Source: Caldilineales bacterium (GTDB lineage Bacteria > Chloroflexota > Anaerolineae > J102). From it: 64,000 bases of DNA. This document shows positions 50,401-57,519 of this stretch, piece after piece; position 1 is the stretch's first letter, and each line of letters opens with the position of its first letter. A model generated the notes under the pieces. It made no database searches and was not told the origin of the DNA. It saw nothing but the letters and a program-made list of their open reading frames with translations. The stretch is taken from the NCBI GenBank assembly GCA_019695115.1, contig JAIBAP010000023.1, forward strand, positions 1-64,000, written 5' to 3'. Both the position numbers and the translations under genes were made by a program.

Positions 50401-51140
50401 CCAACCACCTCGACCTTAACCTGGCGACGGCTGCAGCGTCGGCCGAAGTCGATGACGTCGTGGCAGTGGCATGGCACAAGAACCCGGTCATGGTCGGTGA
50501 TGTGATCGACTTCGGCTTCATCGCCAGAGTCAATAGCTACGATGGCTATGTACATCATGATGCCGTCTTCTACGACGAAGCCTTTGCCGATGTAACGATC
50601 ACAGGCGACACCCTGGAGATCTACGACGACGGCTTGCGCACGGTGGAACTGCCCTTGATGTACGACGGCTGGGTGAACGGCGGCGCTGGCGGCGCCAACT
50701 ACAACGACTACGCCGCCCTCATCGCCCGCGCCACGGGTCTGGACAACGTGCTGCTGACCTTCGACCGCTCGGCCCTGCCCGAAGGCGCCGAAGTGCACCA
50801 TGCCAGCCTGTCGCTGATGTACCGCGGTCAGTCGGGCGCGGTCGGCAAGTCGCTCACGGCCTGGAACGTCAACGCCTACGACCCCATGACCGTGACCTAC
50901 GACACCGCCCCGTTGGCCTACAACCCCGGCGCGCCTGTGGCTGTGCCCGGCGCCGCTGGCTCGGTCAGCTTCGATGTCGCTTCGCAGGTGATGGCCTGGG
51001 ATGCGGCTGGCGCAGCTGACGCCGATGGCATGGGGCAGTTGGCCGTCTCGGCCTCTGGCCCGCTCGGTCGCGTCATCTTCGACAGCCTGGAAAGCTACCA
51101 GGCCAGCCCGGCCACCCTCGAAGTCACCTACCTGCCGTAA
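47499..51140 (+). CDS. Secreted M6-family (immune inhibitor A-like) metalloprotease
   Basis: A 1213-residue protein. A basic N-terminus and a Leu/Ile-rich signal ending VFAAP direct export. The zinc site is HEFGHRLGADD at 380-390 (His380, Glu381, His384), preceded by Asp-rich calcium-like segments (NYDGNGDGVVD). A MAM-like beta domain with WTKYDIEEGWDFGFTQVSTDQG follows, then another beta region, and a C-terminal DNRLRE-type domain from about residue 1053. The Shine-Dalgarno AAAGGAG is clear. It would degrade proteins outside the cell. The 3' end is nearly identical to that of the next gene. Confidence 0.92.
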   Translation: MNHRHHHSRLWAGLSLLVILALLIAAIPVFAAPTSGGDEIVQVQKTAGVTPKQFAPKDQPDPVAYRQRRANEKAILRGDSAGAQTLSGEGKLLVLLLDFAGTDVVTWDPGDQWDPYGKAEEVEFENFGDCSSIITQTMTFTYTPTLHGEVLAPDTADHAYKGEEPTRSFGLYAPDTSQQHFEDLIFGDGVSFSYQALNGEQVNIDVDESLRTYYEKLSRNQYTISGDVIGWIPLPHSLAWYGADLCPGALSQTVQNAGGADGWYGYNPDVETHPRTDYGTPATAIMDAVDWINTTMPDFDWSNYDGNGDGVVDTIVVVTAGIDEANRGSEIDEMAIWPHSSGVDYCADPGPDDQCDTDDDIRTGAYIFQGETTGAATFTHEFGHRLGADDLYSYGYGETSAGIWSNMSDDRGHGTPWDSGSVGMDPWHMLGWGWLNPLIVDYDDPALEVMLTQAADRADGMHDSLVVRLPDQSWAVEEPHSGEGMWFGNRDDLMNNLLYHPIDLTGVPAGATGLELTYWTKYDIEEGWDFGFTQVSTDQGATWTSLANANTTSDHDPAAIGYVVANLPGLTGHIDDWTQQAFGLSAYAGQQIWLGFRYATDWATLGVGWWVDDIAVKDGNNTIFSDDVESGMDDWVADPDEDGWYISNGVFEYPHYYIFEWRNDAGIDHNLAVGRCDVESWGLVGWYINDQKYTANEIYDYVSDVPSFGPKGKALVIDSHPDPLRDASSTVAHNPRGNTAYRCYGMRDAAFGLDELPAFYVTQPPTNPTRWGNPAFEYPAQPAVSAFHDSMGYYPGLEYTNIRPTDDPRGPRNFWVAKERDASVVIPARETYGVAPSNYDGSGFLQWMPEENSYFGFWTAEPGTGNPGDTWAQYGVHLQVVDKADDGSWGKVKFWNASYDYDGAVTETPSKTPLMYGDTVDVHVNATNIGSRVDSTVVVLLDPYVDFVSAYGGAYPLTMGALSQLAASNHLDLNLATAAASAEVDDVVAVAWHKNPVMVGDVIDFGFIARVNSYDGYVHHDAVFYDEAFADVTITGDTLEIYDDGLRTVELPLMYDGWVNGGAGGANYNDYAALIARATGLDNVLLTFDRSALPEGAEVHHASLSLMYRGQSGAVGKSLTAWNVNAYDPMTVTYDTAPLAYNPGAPVAVPGAAGSVSFDVASQVMAWDAAGAADADGMGQLAVSASGPLGRVIFDSLESYQASPATLEVTYLP

Positions 51141-51227
51141 GCTCCTCCTACCAGACAGACCCTAAAGGTCTCCGAGACCTTTAGGGTCTTCAGCAAGTGC
51201 GACGCACCTCGTAGGTGCGTCGCACTT
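50656..51227. repeat. Duplicated 3' end, copy 1 (DNRLRE domain, stop and hairpins)
   Basis: This block matches 54697-55268 at a constant offset of 4041. It is identical at 50656-50734, divergent over about 80 bases, then nearly identical (about six differences by eye) from 50814 through the stop codon and both hairpins. Confidence 0.95.
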
Positions 51228-51232
51228 TTTTT
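51157..51232 (+). terminator. Double hairpin terminator after the first M6 gene
   Basis: First stem: AGACCCTAAAGGTCT (51157-51171) and its complement (51175-51189). Second stem, of the GTGCGACGCAC family: AAGTGCGACGCACCT (51195-51209) and its complement (51213-51227), followed by seven T. The T run makes this a strong rho-independent terminator. Confidence 0.88.
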
Positions 51233-51554
51233 GACATCCCCCCCACCGCGGCGTAAACTTAGCGGCCATTGTGTAGATGATGTCGTGGGCGTCTTCTGTG
51301 CCTGCCCACCTGGCTGCCGTAGCGCCGACAAACCAAGTCGCGGCCGGTCTGCAAACCACGCCGGTGCGCTCCGAGCCGCTTCATTCCTCTCGGGAGGTGT
51401 CCATCGTCCCAACAACAGAACAGACAAGGTCAAAGCGAACGCCCGACCGCCTTGATGACCTGGACGACAGCGGTTGTCGTCAGGTGCAGGCCACGGGTCT
51501 CCCTCAACGTTTTGTTTCCACCCTCACTGCTTTTCAACGGAGAGAAGACCACAC
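51233..51554 (+). other. Spacer/leader upstream of the second M6 gene
   Basis: A 322-base stretch without a convincing ORF or clear promoter. A GGAG lies about 13 bases before the ATG at 51555. Confidence 0.6.
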
Positions 51555-54500
51555 ATGTCTCGTAAACACCAAGCCATCTCGCTAGTTGTCCTGCTGGCGC
51601 TTTTGCTTGCCATCCCCCTCACCGCTCTGGCTGCTCCGGTTCCCGGCGCCGAGCCAACCCGCTCCGCCCGCGACCTCCTCGACCAGATCCAGGGTCGCCG
51701 CTACGCCAACGAACGCCCCCCGCGCGATGAGTCGGTCGCGGCTGCGGCCGCCGGCGTCTCCCTCAACGACGCCGAAGCCCTGGCCAAGTGGTACGATGAC
51801 TTTGCCGCCAAGAAGGAAAAAGGCGGGCCCAACCCCATCGCCTACGCCCAGCGTATGGCCGCCCTGCGCCAGGCCGAGGCCCTGGGCCTCAGCCCCAAAG
51901 CCGCCGGGCTGGCCGAGATCGGTCAGGCCAAGATGCTGATGATCCCCTTCGAATTCGCCGGCTCCGACACCCTCGACCGCTGCGATGCCGACGGCAACCC
52001 CATCGACCAGGTCACGGTCGAAGGCCCGCTGCACGGGACCATCCCCGATCCCTCGCTCGATGGCGATAACAACACCATCTGGACCGACAACTTCAGCATC
52101 GACTGGTACCAGAAACTGATGTTCGGCGATGGCGTTGGCGTCATCCGCACCGACCTCAACAACGGCGCTGGCGTCGATCTCAGCGGCACCTCGGCCCGCA
52201 ACTGGTATTTGCAGCAATCCGAGGGCCAGTACACCGTCGATGGTGAGATCTACCCACAGTGGATCCAGCTCGACCACAGTGTGGCCTACTATGGTTGGGA
52301 TGGCGATGAACTCAGCCCCGATGGCGTCGGCTACCCCTGCGATGGCACCCCCTCGGGCTACGGCTTCGAGTTCACCAGAGATGTCGTCAACAAGCTGAAC
52401 GAGATCGACCCCAACTTCGACTGGTCCCAGTATGACGTCAACGGCGACGGCATCGTCGACCACCTCATGCTCATCCACGCCGGCACCGATAACTCGGCCG
52501 GCGGCGGCAGCTACGGCAACTACCAGCTGTGGGCGCATTCGTGGGACGTCTACTGCGACAACGACGGCGACGGCCAACTGGAATACGGTTGTCTGGTCGA
52601 TGACCGCGGCACCGAAGACCCCGCCGACGACATCTACGTCGCCAACTACACCCACATCCCCGAAGACGCCGACATCGGCGTGGTGGTGCACGAGTACGGC
52701 CACGACATCGGCCTGCCCGACTACTACGACCAGACGGGCGTCACCAACAACTCCGGCGCCCACTGGGACGTGATGAATGCCGGCTCCTGGAGCGGCGACT
52801 TGGGCGGCTCGCACCCGGCTCCCTTCAACGCTTGGGCGCGCTACTTCTTCGGCTGGGAAGACCCCACCCGCATCGACTACGACGCCGCCGCCCAGGAGTT
52901 CACCATCGGCCAGTCCGACCCGACCCCGGCCGGCGCCCTCGATTCGGTCTGGATCGACTTGCCCGACCAGGGCGTGGAAGTGCCCAACCGAGCCGGCGAC
53001 GGCGGCGGTCTCCACTCCGTCCTCGGCAACAACCTGGTCTCGCCCTTGGGCCGCACCTTCGAGCTGACCGGCACGACCGCCCCGGTCTTCACCTTCGACA
53101 CCTCGTTCGACCTGGAAAAGGATTGGGACTACGCCTACGTGCAGGTCTCGACCGACGGCTCCACCTGGACCAACCTGCTCAACGAAGAAGGTGAATACGC
53201 CACCACCGACCCCAACAGCTCCACAGCCTGGCTGGGCGAGGGCGGTCTCACTGGCACGTACGAGGGCAGCCTGACCTACGATCTCAGCGCCTACGCCGGG
53301 GCCACGATCCAGTTCCGCTTCGTCTACCTCAGCGATGCAGGCGTGCAGAACGCCGGCATCTGGGTGGACAACTTCTCGCTCGACGACGGCGACACCAACC
53401 TCTACGAGAGCGACCTGGACGACGTCAGCGACTGGACGTTCGAGGGTTGGGAACAAGTCCCCTTCCAGGACCTCTATCCCCAATACTACATGCTGGAATG
53501 GCGCAACGACCACGGCTCCATCGCTCAGCACGGCCAGACCCAGCAGTACTACACCCTGGCGCACGACCAGATCGGCTGGAAGGTGGACAAGTTCACGGCC
53601 AACGTGCCCGGCCTCCTGGTTTGGTATCGCAACAACCTCTATTCCAACAACCAGGCGGTCGCCGGCGGTCGCGAGTTCGCTGCGCCCGCCATGGGCCCGA
53701 AGGGCGAACTGTTGGCGGTCGATTCCCACTACGACCCGATCGAGTGGAGCGGCGGCTTCTGGAACCCGGCCACCGGAAAACCCGGCCCGGCCTTCAGCAA
53801 CCGCCGCGGCGCCATGGATGCTCTCTTCACGCTGGATGACACCCCCGCCTGGAACCTCCACGACTACGCCAACAACGCCAACGCGGTCATGGACTTCGGC
53901 AGCCGCCCCGCGGTTTCCACCTTCCACGACAGCATGCGCTCGGTGCCCGGTTGGATCTACCCCGGCGGCAGCTCCGTCTACCGCGCCGACCGCTCTGCCT
54001 CGGTCGTCATCCCCGCCCAGGACATCTACACCACCCGCGTCCGCGGTCTGGCTGCCGATGGCATGCACATCGGCGCCGACGTCACCGGTCTCTGGGGCGC
54101 CACCGTTGGCGGCTTGCCGCTCGGCTCTGGCAACCCCGGCGATGACGACGTGCAGTATGGCGTCCATGTGCAGGTGATCGACCAGGCCGCCGATGGCAGC
54201 TGGGGCAAGGTCAAGTTCTGGAACGCTGAGTACGATATGGAAGGCTCGGCCAGCGCCTCGGCCGCCACCGCCGCTGCTGGCGATGAGGTTGCGTTCAGCT
54301 GGGACGGCCGCAACATCGGCTCCGCCGCCAGCTTCCTGGCCTACTTCCCCCTGCCCGCTGGCACCACCTATGTCGATGGCAGCGCCCATGGCGGTCTCGC
54401 TCCCGTCGGCGGCGACCTGGCCTCGGTGCAGGCCGCCCTCGCCGCCGGGCAGGATGCCTCCGCCCTGTCCGCAGTCGCCGCTGAGGATGTCACCGGCTTC

Positions 54501-55181
54501 GTCTGGGCCTACCACGTTGCCACCGGCGATGGCGGCGAGATGGGCTACAGCGTCGAAATCGGCGAGGCCGCAGCCGGAACCCGCATCAAGGCCATCGCCC
54601 AGTTCCTGGACTTGGGCTATGGCGGCGATTACCTCTCCGTCTGGCGCACCTACGCTACGCCGGAAGTGCGCGTCGCCAAGACCGTCAGCCTGCCGCTGAT
54701 GTACGACGGCTGGGTGAACGGCGGCGCTGGCGGCGCCAACTACAACGACTACGCCGCCCTCATCGCCCGCGCCACCGGCCTCGACAACGTCCTCCTCTCC
54801 TTCGACCGTTCGGGCCTCCCCGCCGGCATGGACATCCAGAGCGCCAGCCTGGCCCTGATGTACCGCGGTCAGTCGGGCGCGGTCGGCAAGTCGCTCACGG
54901 CCTGGAACGTCAACGCCTACGACCCCATGACCGTGACCTACGACACCGCCCCGTTGGCCTACAACCCCGGCGCGCCTGTGGCTGTGCCCGGCGCCGCTGG
55001 CTCGGTCAGCTTCGATGTCGCTTCGCAGGTGATGGCCTGGGATGCAGCTGGCGCAGCTGACGCCGATGGCATGGGGCAGTTGGCCGTCTCGGCCTCTGGC
55101 CCGCTCGGTCGCGCCATCTTCGACAGCCTGGAAAGCTACCAGGCCAGCCCGGCCACGCTCGAAGTCACCTACCTGCCGTAA
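51555..55181 (+). CDS. Secreted M6-family metalloprotease, second copy
   Basis: A 1208-residue protein with a signal sequence ending LTALAAP. The zinc motif HEYGHDIGLPD lies at 379-389 (His379, Glu380, His383, Asp389), with DVNGDGIVD upstream. DLEKDWDYAYVQVSTDGS marks the MAM-like domain and LPLMYDGWVNGG the start of the C-terminal DNRLRE-type domain near 1047. It resembles the first M6 protein along its length, but only the C-terminal domain is nearly identical at DNA level. I chose the ATG at 55155-lower start 51555 because the signal peptide begins there. No sortase or secretion partner is adjacent. Confidence 0.92.
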   Translation: MSRKHQAISLVVLLALLLAIPLTALAAPVPGAEPTRSARDLLDQIQGRRYANERPPRDESVAAAAAGVSLNDAEALAKWYDDFAAKKEKGGPNPIAYAQRMAALRQAEALGLSPKAAGLAEIGQAKMLMIPFEFAGSDTLDRCDADGNPIDQVTVEGPLHGTIPDPSLDGDNNTIWTDNFSIDWYQKLMFGDGVGVIRTDLNNGAGVDLSGTSARNWYLQQSEGQYTVDGEIYPQWIQLDHSVAYYGWDGDELSPDGVGYPCDGTPSGYGFEFTRDVVNKLNEIDPNFDWSQYDVNGDGIVDHLMLIHAGTDNSAGGGSYGNYQLWAHSWDVYCDNDGDGQLEYGCLVDDRGTEDPADDIYVANYTHIPEDADIGVVVHEYGHDIGLPDYYDQTGVTNNSGAHWDVMNAGSWSGDLGGSHPAPFNAWARYFFGWEDPTRIDYDAAAQEFTIGQSDPTPAGALDSVWIDLPDQGVEVPNRAGDGGGLHSVLGNNLVSPLGRTFELTGTTAPVFTFDTSFDLEKDWDYAYVQVSTDGSTWTNLLNEEGEYATTDPNSSTAWLGEGGLTGTYEGSLTYDLSAYAGATIQFRFVYLSDAGVQNAGIWVDNFSLDDGDTNLYESDLDDVSDWTFEGWEQVPFQDLYPQYYMLEWRNDHGSIAQHGQTQQYYTLAHDQIGWKVDKFTANVPGLLVWYRNNLYSNNQAVAGGREFAAPAMGPKGELLAVDSHYDPIEWSGGFWNPATGKPGPAFSNRRGAMDALFTLDDTPAWNLHDYANNANAVMDFGSRPAVSTFHDSMRSVPGWIYPGGSSVYRADRSASVVIPAQDIYTTRVRGLAADGMHIGADVTGLWGATVGGLPLGSGNPGDDDVQYGVHVQVIDQAADGSWGKVKFWNAEYDMEGSASASAATAAAGDEVAFSWDGRNIGSAASFLAYFPLPAGTTYVDGSAHGGLAPVGGDLASVQAALAAGQDASALSAVAAEDVTGFVWAYHVATGDGGEMGYSVEIGEAAAGTRIKAIAQFLDLGYGGDYLSVWRTYATPEVRVAKTVSLPLMYDGWVNGGAGGANYNDYAALIARATGLDNVLLSFDRSGLPAGMDIQSASLALMYRGQSGAVGKSLTAWNVNAYDPMTVTYDTAPLAYNPGAPVAVPGAAGSVSFDVASQVMAWDAAGAADADGMGQLAVSASGPLGRAIFDSLESYQASPATLEVTYLP

Positions 55182-55268
55182 GCTCCTCCTACCAGACAGA
55201 CCCTAAAGGTCTCGGAGACCTTTAGGGTCTTCAGCAAGTGCGACGCACCTTGTAGGTGCGTCGCTCTT
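54697..55268. repeat. Duplicated 3' end, copy 2
   Basis: Counterpart of 50656-51227. The near-identity continues through the stop codon and both hairpins and stops right after them. Confidence 0.95.
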
Positions 55269-55270
55269 TT
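55198..55270 (+). terminator. Double hairpin terminator after the second M6 gene
   Basis: First stem AGACCCTAAAGGTCT (55198-55212) with 55216-55230; second stem AAGTGCGACGCACCT (55236-55250) with 55254-55268, one change in the right arm, then five T. Same design as at 51157. The second stem is also the first palindrome of the toxin-antitoxin region. Confidence 0.85.
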
Positions 55271-55310
55271 TGTTGGTTGCACTTGCCATCGCGTCATACT
55301 CGACAACCGT

Positions 55311-55339
55311 TTGACACCCGTAACGTAACACACTACAAT
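55311..55339 (+). promoter_or_regulatory. Promoter of the higBA remnant
   Basis: Perfect TTGACA, a 17-base spacer and TACAAT. The -10 ends seven bases before the higB ATG at 55347, so the mRNA would be leaderless or nearly so. Confidence 0.82.
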
Positions 55340-55346
55340 CGCAAAC

Positions 55347-55418
55347 ATGATACGCACTGTTCGCCACAAGGGGCTGGCCGCACTCTATAACTATGAAGAA
55401 TCCTCCTCACCCTGGTGA
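55347..55418 (+). pseudogene. higB remnant (toxin gene reduced to its first codons)
   Basis: The frame reads [20 protein letters not shown] and stops after 23 codons. The first 14 residues match the start of HigB toxins (MIR-FRHKGL-LY). The toxin core is missing and the frame runs on into higA, whose ATG lies at 55393. An internal deletion has therefore joined the higB start to a point just before higA. The promoter is intact, so higA can still be transcribed. Confidence 0.75.
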
Positions 55419-55701
55419 GATCATCCGTGACTTGTACATCGAGCCGCTTGACCTGACGGTCACGCAGGCGGCGACGGGGTTGGGCGTCAGCCGCAAGACA
55501 TTGTCTATGCTGCTCAATGGACATGCCGGAATCTCACCCGAAATGGCCATCCGTCTGTCCAAGGCCTTCGGGCGCACACCCGAAAGCTGGCTTCAGTTGC
55601 AGATGCAATATGACCTGGCCCAGTGTAGCCAGCATATCGAGCGCATTCAGGTGCGGCCCTTTGTGCGTCCACGGCAGGAATCCGCTGCACCAGCCGCCTG
55701 A
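55393..55701 (+). CDS. higA: HigA-family antitoxin
   Basis: A 102-residue Xre-type antitoxin. [58 protein letters not shown] shows the HigA N-terminal motif (HPGEI) and the helix-turn-helix. [13 protein letters not shown] is the typical end of the domain. It would bind the HigB toxin and its own promoter. The toxin gene upstream is deleted, so this is an orphan antitoxin. A palindrome of the GTGCGACGCAC family follows 12 bases after the stop. Confidence 0.92.
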
Positions 55702-55713
55702 ATAACAAAGAAA

Positions 55714-55740
55714 TGCGACGCACCTGGCAGGTGCGTCGCA
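55714..55740. repeat. GTGCGACGCAC palindrome between higA and DUF4160 genes
   Basis: Arms TGCGACGCACCT (55714-55725) and complement (55729-55740), loop GGC. Confidence 0.9.
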
Positions 55741-55756
55741 CTGTTATAAGAACCAT

Positions 55757-55785
55757 TTGACCTGGTGCAACCATTGCACTATACT
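55757..55785 (+). promoter_or_regulatory. Promoter of the DUF4160-DUF2442 module, leaderless
   Basis: TTGACC, 17-base spacer and TATACT, six bases before the ATG at 55792. Transcription would begin at the start codon. Confidence 0.82.
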
Positions 55786-55791
55786 CGCATT

Positions 55792-56025
55792 ATGCCCGTT
55801 ATCAAGCGGTTCGGAAACTGTGCGATCAAGATGTATGCTGACGAGCATCCACCGCCCCATTTCCACATAGAATTCTCAGACGGCATGCGATGCTCGGTCG
55901 AGATCGAGACCCTGACCATCATCGCCGGATTGATTCATCCGAGGCATCGCTTGCTTGAACCGTTGACATGGGCCGCTGACAATCGCACTTTACTGCGAGC
56001 AAAATGGAGAGAACTGACAAGATGA
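55792..56025 (+). CDS. DUF4160 protein (toxin-like)
   Basis: A 77-residue protein starting MPVIKRFGNCAIKMYADEHPPPHFHIEFSDG, the DUF4160 signature with its HPPPHFH motif. DUF4160 genes usually precede a DUF2442 gene and the pair is regarded as toxin-antitoxin-like. The stop overlaps the DUF2442 start (ATGA). I chose the ATG at 55792 because it matches the family and the promoter; the longer frame would start upstream of the -10. Confidence 0.88.
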   Translation: MPVIKRFGNCAIKMYADEHPPPHFHIEFSDGMRCSVEIETLTIIAGLIHPRHRLLEPLTWAADNRTLLRAKWRELTR

Positions 56026-56477
56026 TGAAACCACCCCGCATTATGGCTGCGGATGTGACCGGGCCGATGAGGCTATCCATCGCCTGGAGCACCGGCGAGC
56101 GCTTCGATATCGATCTGCGTGAGCCGATCAACCGCCTAGAGGCTCTGTCACCGCTCCGCGACCCGGTTCTGTTTGCCCGCGTTCAGGTGGGCGAGTGGGG
56201 GCACAGCCTGGTTTGGAACGACGAGGTCGATTTGGGTGCAGATCGACTCTACGAGCGATGCAAAGAGCAAGCCGGCGAACTATCGCCGCGCCAGTTCGAT
56301 GCCTGGATGAAAAGCCATCAGCTATCACTCACCACCGCTGCAACAGCCTTGGGAATCTCGCGGCGGATGGTTGCCCACTACCGAACCGGCAGCCGTCCAA
56401 TTCCCAAGGTCGTGTCTCTGGCGTGTAAAGGTTGGGAAGTGCAATCGGCGTTTCCTACCCGCGCGTCAACGAATTGA
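56022..56477 (+). CDS. DUF2442 protein with C-terminal HTH (antitoxin-like)
   Basis: A 151-residue protein. The N-terminal DUF2442 domain (about 1-80) has PRIMAADVTGPMRLSIAWSTGERFDIDLREPI; the second part (about 95-140) is an Xre-like HTH, SLTTAATALGISRRMVAHYRTGSRPIP. The last residues after ACKGWE are read from a displaced higA fragment, so the native end is probably lost. It partners the DUF4160 gene. Confidence 0.85.
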   Translation: MMKPPRIMAADVTGPMRLSIAWSTGERFDIDLREPINRLEALSPLRDPVLFARVQVGEWGHSLVWNDEVDLGADRLYERCKEQAGELSPRQFDAWMKSHQLSLTTAATALGISRRMVAHYRTGSRPIPKVVSLACKGWEVQSAFPTRASTN

Positions 56478-56659
56478 TCCACGGCAAACGCGGCATGACG
56501 CCCGATACAGCCCTCCGCCTCGAACGGCTCTTTGGCATGGAGGCTCAGTTCTGGCTCAATCTCCAGCTTGCCTGGGACCTTTATCAGACGCAACACTCCC
56601 CGGCAGCCCAGGAAATCGCCCACATCCAGCGCCTGCCAGCCCTTGCCGCAGGATCCTGA
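56432..56659 (+). pseudogene. 5'-truncated higA fragment fused to the DUF2442 end
   Basis: In another frame than DUF2442, the sequence reads AIGVSYPRVNELIHGKRGMT, then DTALRLERLFGMEAQFWLNL and ends near ALAAGS at 56659. This is the middle and end of a HigA antitoxin. The HPGEI start and first helices are missing. The junction with DUF2442 lies near 56435. Translation from a TTG at 56432 is possible but weak. Confidence 0.75.
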
Positions 56660-56666
56660 CAGAAGA

Positions 56667-56697
56667 AGTGCGACGCACCTGCCAGGTGCGTCGCACT
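56667..56697. repeat. GTGCGACGCAC palindrome after the higA fragment
   Basis: Arms AGTGCGACGCACCT (56667-56680) and complement (56684-56697), loop GCC, then GTTTTGTT. Confidence 0.9.
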
Positions 56698-56709
56698 GTT
56701 TTGTTACCG

Positions 56710-57108
56710 TCATTTCAGAATGCGTATTGTTCGCTCATCAAAGCTGTAATACAATCTCTCGTATTCACTCACTCGAACAACCTTACCCATACGATTGTTC
56801 TTGGTCCTAAATTGCGGAAGCAGCAAAAGAGATCGCAAAAGTGCCGGAATCAATACGGTCTTCGAATCTGGTAAAGCAAAACAAACCACACAGAAGCTAT
56901 CATTGATAGCAACTTTGCGCCAGAAATCCTTCTCGTTGATTGTTAGTAAGGTCGGCTGGTCTTGCTTCTGCAACAAACGAGGGATGTCGTCGTCTTTGAT
57001 GATCGTACCAGGACGCAAGTCGGTAATGAAGCAGACCCTTCCCGAATACCACTGTGCGATCTGCGTCTCTATTCTCCGGCCAAGCAACTGTTCATCAAGT
57101 ACGATCAT
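56710..57108 (-). CDS. DUF5615-like PIN-domain protein (toxin-like)
   Basis: A 132-residue protein. The start MIVLDEQLLGRRIETQIAQW with an early Asp, the central TLLTINEKDFWRKV and an FCVVCFALPD strand match DUF5615-type PIN proteins. Such genes follow DUF433 genes and the pair is VapBC-like. The DNA is distinctly AT-richer than its surroundings, which suggests recent acquisition. It starts three bases after the DUF433 stop. The C-terminal 40 residues are longer than in typical DUF5615 proteins. Confidence 0.78.
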   Translation of the reverse strand: MIVLDEQLLGRRIETQIAQWYSGRVCFITDLRPGTIIKDDDIPRLLQKQDQPTLLTINEKDFWRKVAINDSFCVVCFALPDSKTVLIPALLRSLLLLPQFRTKNNRMGKVVRVSEYERLYYSFDERTIRILK

Positions 57109-57111
57109 CCA

Positions 57112-57393
57112 TCAGGCCATTTCGAGTTGCGGTAATGAGGTCACGAACTGTGACGAAACCAGCCTGATCGCCTCGATGATGGCCTCACGCGAGACGCGAC
57201 CTCGATACCCTGCAACAATCTCGTCCAGACTCTCACCCACAGCCAGGCGATCGAGTGTGCCAGTGATCTCGATGCGCGTGTACTTGAACGTAGGACGTCC
57301 GCCGCAAACTTCAGGTGATCGTACAACGTAATCGCCCAAAGGATAATAGCGGTATGCTTCACTACCAACGAACTCTGTGGTCAGGTCTGTCAT
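57112..57393 (-). CDS. DUF433 protein (antitoxin-like)
   Basis: A 93-residue protein with the DUF433 core DYVVRSPEVCGGRPTFKYTR then IEITGTLDRLAVGESLDEIVAGYRG and VSREAIIEAIRL, a winged-helix-like antitoxin domain. I chose the ATG at 57393, with GAGG nine bases upstream and a promoter at 57433. It forms an operon with the DUF5615-like gene and has the opposite orientation to the other two modules in the cluster. Confidence 0.88.
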   Translation of the reverse strand: MTDLTTEFVGSEAYRYYPLGDYVVRSPEVCGGRPTFKYTRIEITGTLDRLAVGESLDEIVAGYRGRVSREAIIEAIRLVSSQFVTSLPQLEMA

Positions 57394-57432
57394 TTCTATT
57401 GCCTCAGTGTGCTTGAAGAACTCACATGTAAA

Positions 57433-57462
57433 AAGATAAAACCATTCGACCGATGGTGTCAA
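57433..57462 (-). promoter_or_regulatory. Promoter of the DUF433-DUF5615 module
   Basis: On the minus strand TTGACA (57462-57457), an 18-base spacer and TATCTT (57438-57433). It lies about 40 bases upstream of the DUF433 start. Confidence 0.65.
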
Positions 57463-57472
57463 GTCACCCCGT

Positions 57473-57519
57473 CAACAAAGAATGCGACGCACCTTGTAGG
57501 TGCGTCGCATTCTTTGTTG
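57473..57519. repeat. GTGCGACGCAC palindrome, extended copy
   Basis: The longest copy: 22-base arms that extend the core with CAACAAAGAA on the left, exactly mirrored on the right (57498-57519), around a TGT loop. Confidence 0.92.

Follow-up and report, generated by a model that had tools for sequence, protein, structure and literature searches.

Interrupted near-identity at the 3' ends of two divergent M6 protease genes points to gene conversion of a C-terminal module in a Caldilineales bacterium

We analysed a window of 64,000 nucleotides (positions 1 to 64,000 of contig JAIBAP010000023.1, GenBank assembly GCA_019695115.1) from an uncultured Caldilineales bacterium of the Chloroflexota, which contains two tandem genes for secreted M6 metalloproteases, here called P1 and P2, that are nearly identical at their 3' ends and divergent elsewhere. 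The likeness of these ends was very probably produced by homologous copying in an interrupted tract, as one recent event in a concerted evolution that recurs across the taxonomic family. The source genome, a draft of 135 contigs, is labelled G000, and its relatives are numbered in the same manner.

P1 (47499-51140, plus strand, 1213 amino acids) and its paralog P2 (51555-55181, plus strand, 1208 amino acids, with a reading frame open already from a TTG at 51474) have the same domain order. The Pfam models PF05547, PF20773 and PF20774 (Peptidase_M6, MAM and VEG) score above their cut-offs in both, and the translations contain HEFGH in P1 and HEYGH in P2, which we take to be zinc-type motifs. 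Both are assigned to the M6 (immune inhibitor A) metalloproteases, with proteolysis as a predicted activity only. The whole proteins, tails included, are ~39% identical by BLASTP. At the C-terminus each carries a CBM96/DNRLRE-type module, referred to below as the tail, which was delimited by profile match and predicted fold in P1 (50637-51137, plus strand) and by profile match in P2 (54675-55178, plus strand); the part ahead of it is called the body.

The shared 3' tract of P1 and P2

Aligned at an offset of 4041, positions 50656-51227 and 54697-55268 show 30 differences over 572 bases, and of the 385 exact 16-mers that the two gene regions share, 381 fall on this diagonal. This bears out a preliminary description of the window, which had reported a constant offset of 4041 between two proteases unlike over most of their length; beyond either end of the tract, ungapped identity at this offset falls to what is expected by chance. 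The description had further distinguished an identical block of 79 bases, about 80 divergent bases and more than 400 bases with about six differences, and the same arrangement was recovered here, all on the plus strand. The left tract (50656-50734 in P1, 54697-54775 in P2) is identical at 79 of 79 positions, the divergent patch (50735-50813 and 54776-54854) has 24 differences in 79 nt, and the right tract (50814-51227 and 54855-55268) has six in 414 nt, at 51005, 51073, 51116, 51173, 51210 and 51224 in P1 coordinates. As had been noted, the right tract includes the stop codon and two hairpins in addition to the remainder of the module. These are the palindromes H1 (51157-51189 after P1, 55198-55230 after P2) and H2 (51195-51227 and 55236-55268). 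The left boundary of the tract is close to the module start, where similarity between P1 and P2 sets in. Its right edge is H2, followed after P1 by T-rich DNA; the match had been said to end directly after the palindrome, and we can add that identity extends a few T further, to the next difference at 51231. The longest identical run is 191 nt (50814-51004). Among 20000 random placements of 30 differences, none gathered 24 of them within any 79-nt window (the largest number was 15), and a single one reached an identical run of 191 nt.

The preliminary description had proposed comparing synonymous divergence along the alignment, and this comparison sets the tract apart from both the patch and the bodies. 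Among four-fold degenerate sites where both genes encode the same amino acid, the base is shared at 14 of 14 sites in the left tract and 67 of 69 in the right (81 of 83 for the tract overall), as against 5 of 13 patch sites and 88 of 155 body sites (body versus tail, p = 2e-7; patch versus tract, p = 4e-7). The untranslated hairpins are also near-identical after the two genes. Since silent sites and untranslated hairpins are homogenised alike, it was DNA that was copied, in an interrupted tract, and homogenisation in G000 thus occurred at the DNA level. The paralogs resemble each other, even at silent sites, inside a delimited tract and diverge beyond its limits. This pattern, together with the conflict between body and tail trees presented below, strongly supports gene conversion, or an equivalent one-way recombination, between the P1 and P2 tails, as had been suggested from the mosaic alone.

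Two other explanations bear on these data. If protein-level constraint acted alone, with a common partner keeping the tails within a genome alike and no exchange of DNA, tails on non-homologous enzymes could group by genome as they do, and the fold is indeed of a binding-module type. The homogenised silent sites and hairpins refute this for G000, and as a full account we give it hardly any weight, but the silent-site signal is weaker in the older pairs of G001 and G005, where constraint may contribute. The second tail might instead be a misassembled copy of one repeat, as could happen in a genome left in 135 contigs. However, the 30 differences include a compact patch, the flanks are unique on both sides on one contig, and the pattern recurs in relatives that were assembled separately, so that an artefact is very unlikely.

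Under homologous copying, P1 and P2 would be old tandem M6 paralogs that each already had a C-terminal CBM96/DNRLRE-type module. Recombination between the modules, presumably of the RecA type, would have copied one tail and its 3' hairpins over the other. The module start would have set the left edge, and a pre-existing H2 after P2 could have supplied the homology on the right. The 79-base patch would either have been left uncopied or have been replaced later. As to direction, the P2 tail is below body-level identity to its G003 ortholog and the P1 tail is near body level to its G005 ortholog, which hints at copying from P1 to P2. This hint is countered by the patch. Its seven nearest relatives are four G001 tails, one G002 tail and two G005 tails, of which six are nearer to the P2 version and one is a tie. 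Codon usage was tried as a marker of the patch, which has CTC in P2 and CTG in P1, the P2 body being richer in CTC, and was set aside because of the low counts.

Conflict between body and tail trees in related genomes

The preliminary description had also suggested looking in sister genomes for other genes that end in the same block. A tail profile was built from 20 tails, with E<=1e-30 defining a close copy. It detected 39 close copies in 16 of the 20 genomes of the taxonomic family, partly on non-homologous enzymes, and none in 278 other genomes sampled from the class, where scoring was limited to 12 candidates per genome. With the cut-off relaxed to E<=1e-4, every one of the 20 family genomes gave some match, many of them weak. 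The named carriers are Caldilineales and other Chloroflexota metagenome-assembled genomes (23 loci). These genes make P1 and P2 one case of a repeated homogenisation, in part across non-homologous enzymes. For the analyses below, 38 of the 39 copies were used, the copy with an in-frame stop being excluded; a further record of a gene already included was also set aside. In the locus L115 (G006:C36:28467-28838), the tail copy has an in-frame TGA and probably belongs to a broken or truncated gene.

Trees were computed for 13 M6 bodies and for 38 tails, and an additional 13-row tail set served for approximately unbiased (AU) tests. In the body tree, the P2 orthologs (G000, G003, G005 and G006) form one clade (100/100) and the P1 orthologs (G000, G001, G005 and G008) form a separate one (100/100). 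AU tests on the bodies rejected as clades P1 plus P2 of G000 (p = 1.8e-4), P1 plus P2 of G005 (p = 3.9e-4) and the two bodies of G001 (p = 1e-44). The tail tree groups by genome instead: P1 with P2 in G000 (100/99) and in G005 (100/98), four tails of G001 from two M6 proteases, a subtilase and a nucleotidase (99/98), four tails of G008 from an M6 protease and three subtilases (98/93), and three tails of G004 (94/89, unstarred). On the tails, AU tests rejected a clade of the P1 tails of G000, G001 and G005 (p = 1e-86) and a clade of the four P2 tails (p = 4e-11), and the 13-row set agreed (p = 2e-38 and 1.6e-4, respectively). Genome labels changed 23 times on the tail tree, compared with a mean of 30.4 after shuffling, and none of 200 shuffles gave a number as low. 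The tree of the tract therefore conflicts with that of the bodies, and it does so in four genomes, G000, G001, G005 and G008.

The same contrast is seen along the sequences. In 60-column windows, identity within the pairs of G000, G005 and G001 is 0.04-0.50 over the body and climbs to 0.73-1.00 over the tail, whereas ortholog pairs have no comparable jump. The P2 ortholog of G006 and an M6 protein of G004 leave their body relatives before the tail and are there closer to P1-type sequence, so that exchange tracts seem to be of differing length.

As a control for tail-biased sampling, the family was searched at E<=1e-40 with queries that contained only the P1 and P2 bodies. This returned 14 M6 genes, including every P1 and P2 ortholog seen, and all 14 have a tail and were already in the tail set. 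Because every M6 gene found by its body at this cut-off has one, the tails are ancestral to these proteases and were replaced rather than gained. This result bears on module duplication, in which tail and hairpins were freshly appended from one gene to the other and no older tail was overwritten. Duplication would fit a similarity that begins at the first residues of the module, and a single gene pair would look alike under either explanation. It would, however, need repeated independent gains at one place, and with all 14 genes found by their bodies at E<=1e-40 bearing a tail we rejected it as improbable. Under recurrent conversion, by comparison, tails would have been replaced from tails of the same genome while bodies were inherited vertically.

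Several observations weigh against a family-wide process of this kind or limit its reach. All tails fall in one clade in only 4 of 12 multi-copy genomes, and G000 as a whole is not among them. The tails of G013 and G014 follow their orthologs, and two GH16 proteins of G000 and G003 group together in the tail tree, joined by the P2 tail of G003. In other within-genome pairs the silent-site test gives a moderate signal for G005 (p = 0.0013) but a weak one for G001 (p = 0.014); of its three ortholog controls, one reaches p = 0.046. A run-length conversion test is convincing for the G000 pair only; many between-genome pairs also pass 0.05, and the test was discarded as a marker of older pairs since it did not discriminate. 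No patch donor emerged from the remaining 36 tails of the tree set: where at least 70% of the patch is covered, identity to either of its versions does not exceed 0.72. Finally, the argument draws on one genome and its relatives, which include no unconverted strain. Homogenisation in the family is thus recurrent but episodic.

The tail module, its carriers and the 3' palindromes

The tails of P1 and P2 match the NCBIfam DNRLRE model NF033679 (cut-off 34 bits) with 38.2 and 40.7 bits, respectively, and the GH16 protein of G000 falls just under the cut-off with 33.4 bits. The Pfam CBM96 model PF24517 (cut-off 26 bits) matches neither P1 nor P2 at E<=0.1, and it scores above cut-off in many relatives of the same tail subfamily. 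A sequence search of solved structures gave a single match, 8WAB, at E 0.095, and a fold comparison was needed. The predicted structure of the P1 module is a beta-sandwich (mean pLDDT 91.1, from a 25-row alignment). With VIA-align it matched 8WAB with Z 19.8 over 160 residues and 7VBO with Z 17.7 over 151, the next entries being at 13.1, at a sequence identity to these two solved modules of only 16-18%. Profile scores and model together support a DNRLRE/CBM96-type module with a CBM96-like fold. They uphold the earlier proposal that the converted part encodes a DNRLRE-type domain, although the Pfam CBM96 model is unmatched in P1 and P2.

The DNRLRE domain was first described in PMC2447325. Of the two solved modules, 8WAB is, by its database title, a chondroitin-sulfate binder, and 7VBO is an alginate-binding CBM96 whose binding requires several lysines, one arginine and one tyrosine (PMC9971899). 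All 38 tails are acidic, with net charges from -1 to -18 (median -8), and in view of the lysine and arginine use in 7VBO the same binding mode is not expected. The tails thus resemble the CBM96/DNRLRE group in predicted fold and NF033679 score and differ from it in being acidic, at the extreme C-terminus and mostly on proteases, as putative binders.

The tail ends at most 13 residues from the C-terminus in 36 of 38 carriers and is internal in two pullulanase-like proteins. The carriers comprise 14 M6 genes, 11 subtilases, 3 GH16 proteins, 2 pullulanases, one 5'-nucleotidase/phosphoesterase, one DUF285 protein, 2 partial proteins (L065 and L111) with no catalytic match, and 4 fragments. Pfam was run on 28 of the 38; the fragments were outside this run, and six M6 genes were assigned by their similarity to P1 and P2. 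The identified carriers are therefore mostly proteases rather than glycan-active enzymes. In the pullulanase-like proteins (L021:3-6560 on G000:C56, and L066:3-6839 on G003:C227), the module has pullulanase-type domains on one side and a second alpha-amylase catalytic domain on the other. In the G000 copy, identity to P1 is 80% over the first 127 bases and 56% over the remainder, which may reflect another short conversion tract.

H1 and H2 belong to dispersed families. G000 contains 18 exact copies of H1 and 12 of H2, and G001 contains 1 and 7, respectively. Six of the 12 H2 copies of G000 are on the contig of P1 and P2, five of them within 51.2-57.5 kb; those at 55240, 55715, 56670 and 57484 are interspersed with short genes (55240-57508) that we take to resemble toxin-antitoxin-type genes. 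Two of the six late differences in the tract are inside H2 (51210 and 51224), which is consistent with a role of H2 and proves nothing. The palindromes were considered as a required boundary and rejected as such, since in most other genomes hairpins of another kind stand downstream of the tails. By eye, many tail genes of these genomes (L055, L056, L057, L058, L060, L061, L063 and L101) have a GC-rich hairpin of the type AGGCCGGG...CCCGGCCT within ~100 bases 3' of the stop, and H1 and H2 occupy its place in G000. The only exact H1 of G001 (L055:17525-17553, G001:C98:103524-103552) is ~60 bases past the stop of a tail-bearing M6 gene. Six H1 lie head to tail with a 46-base period at L023:1415-1678 (G000:C4:131914-132177), five with exact cores and one changed, and further closely spaced pairs are on C54, C62 and C37. 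On contig C117 of G008 (L101), the 3' flanks of an M6 and a subtilase gene, downstream of minus-strand stops at 587 and 5811, are ~75% identical over 274 columns; the tails of the same pair are only 52% identical as proteins.

Possible roles of the tail and relation to known systems

Neutral conversion between tandem repeats also explains much of the likeness of the tails. Here repeated modules would recombine and become homogenised as a side effect, and the module would be an accessory domain that binds substrate in the ordinary way. Three observations speak for neutrality: many of the homogenised tails belong to genes adjacent in tandem (G000, G001, G004 and G005), several genomes are not homogenised, and the fold is CBM96-like. 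We lean slightly towards it, even though the G001 nucleotidase, encoded on another contig, sits in a clade with three proteases, and the carriers are mostly proteases rather than enzymes acting on glycans. A more tentative idea, to which we give clearly less credence, is that the module is a species-specific address tag. The tail, restricted to this family, would retain unrelated secreted enzymes on the producer's own surface or sheath, and recurrent conversion of tail and 3' hairpins as one unit would keep the tags of a genome matched to their current target. If the enzymes had a surface target in common, this would account both for the presence of one tail on different enzymes and for its being kept alike. 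Anchoring of both proteases to the same surface partner, raised in the preliminary description, is hypothetical: the predicted fold matches polysaccharide-binding modules, yet in their acidic charge the tails differ from the alginate binder. Dockerins of cellulosomal enzymes offer a similar pattern, being one C-terminal module on unrelated secreted enzymes with species-specific pairing to cohesins; no sequence relation to them is claimed, and no search for a partner was made here.

Comparable events have been reported in other bacteria. In Mycobacterium tuberculosis, interrupted conversion of the C-terminal domains of pe_pgrs27 and pe_pgrs28 is described between sequenced outbreak strains (PMC12046097), whereas ours is deduced from one genome and its relatives; the remainder of P1 and P2 is far more divergent than that of the pair as described there, and the tail is a folded module found also on non-homologous enzymes. 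The babA and babB genes of Helicobacter pylori encode surface-protein paralogs with near-identical ends and a divergent remainder, attributed to intragenomic recombination (PMC4552749). As presented in that report they are alike at both ends and divergent in the middle, while P1 and P2 are alike only at the 3' module and hairpins, and other enzyme classes take part in the genomes related to G000. Judged from titles and the opening of abstracts, none of the papers listed in a literature search that left out most subscription journals describes the present case. It differs from the two reported systems in that homogenisation is confined to one folded C-terminal module, carried by enzymes that are divergent or unrelated, and occurs in several genomes of a single bacterial family.

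In the comparison cases, the paralogs share much of their length or both of their ends, whereas here the enzymes ahead of the module are divergent or unrelated. The tails of such proteins will mislead phylogenies and annotation. The system also allows a test between two views of domain-limited conversion, as a neutral process or as one that holds a set of exported proteins to a single target.

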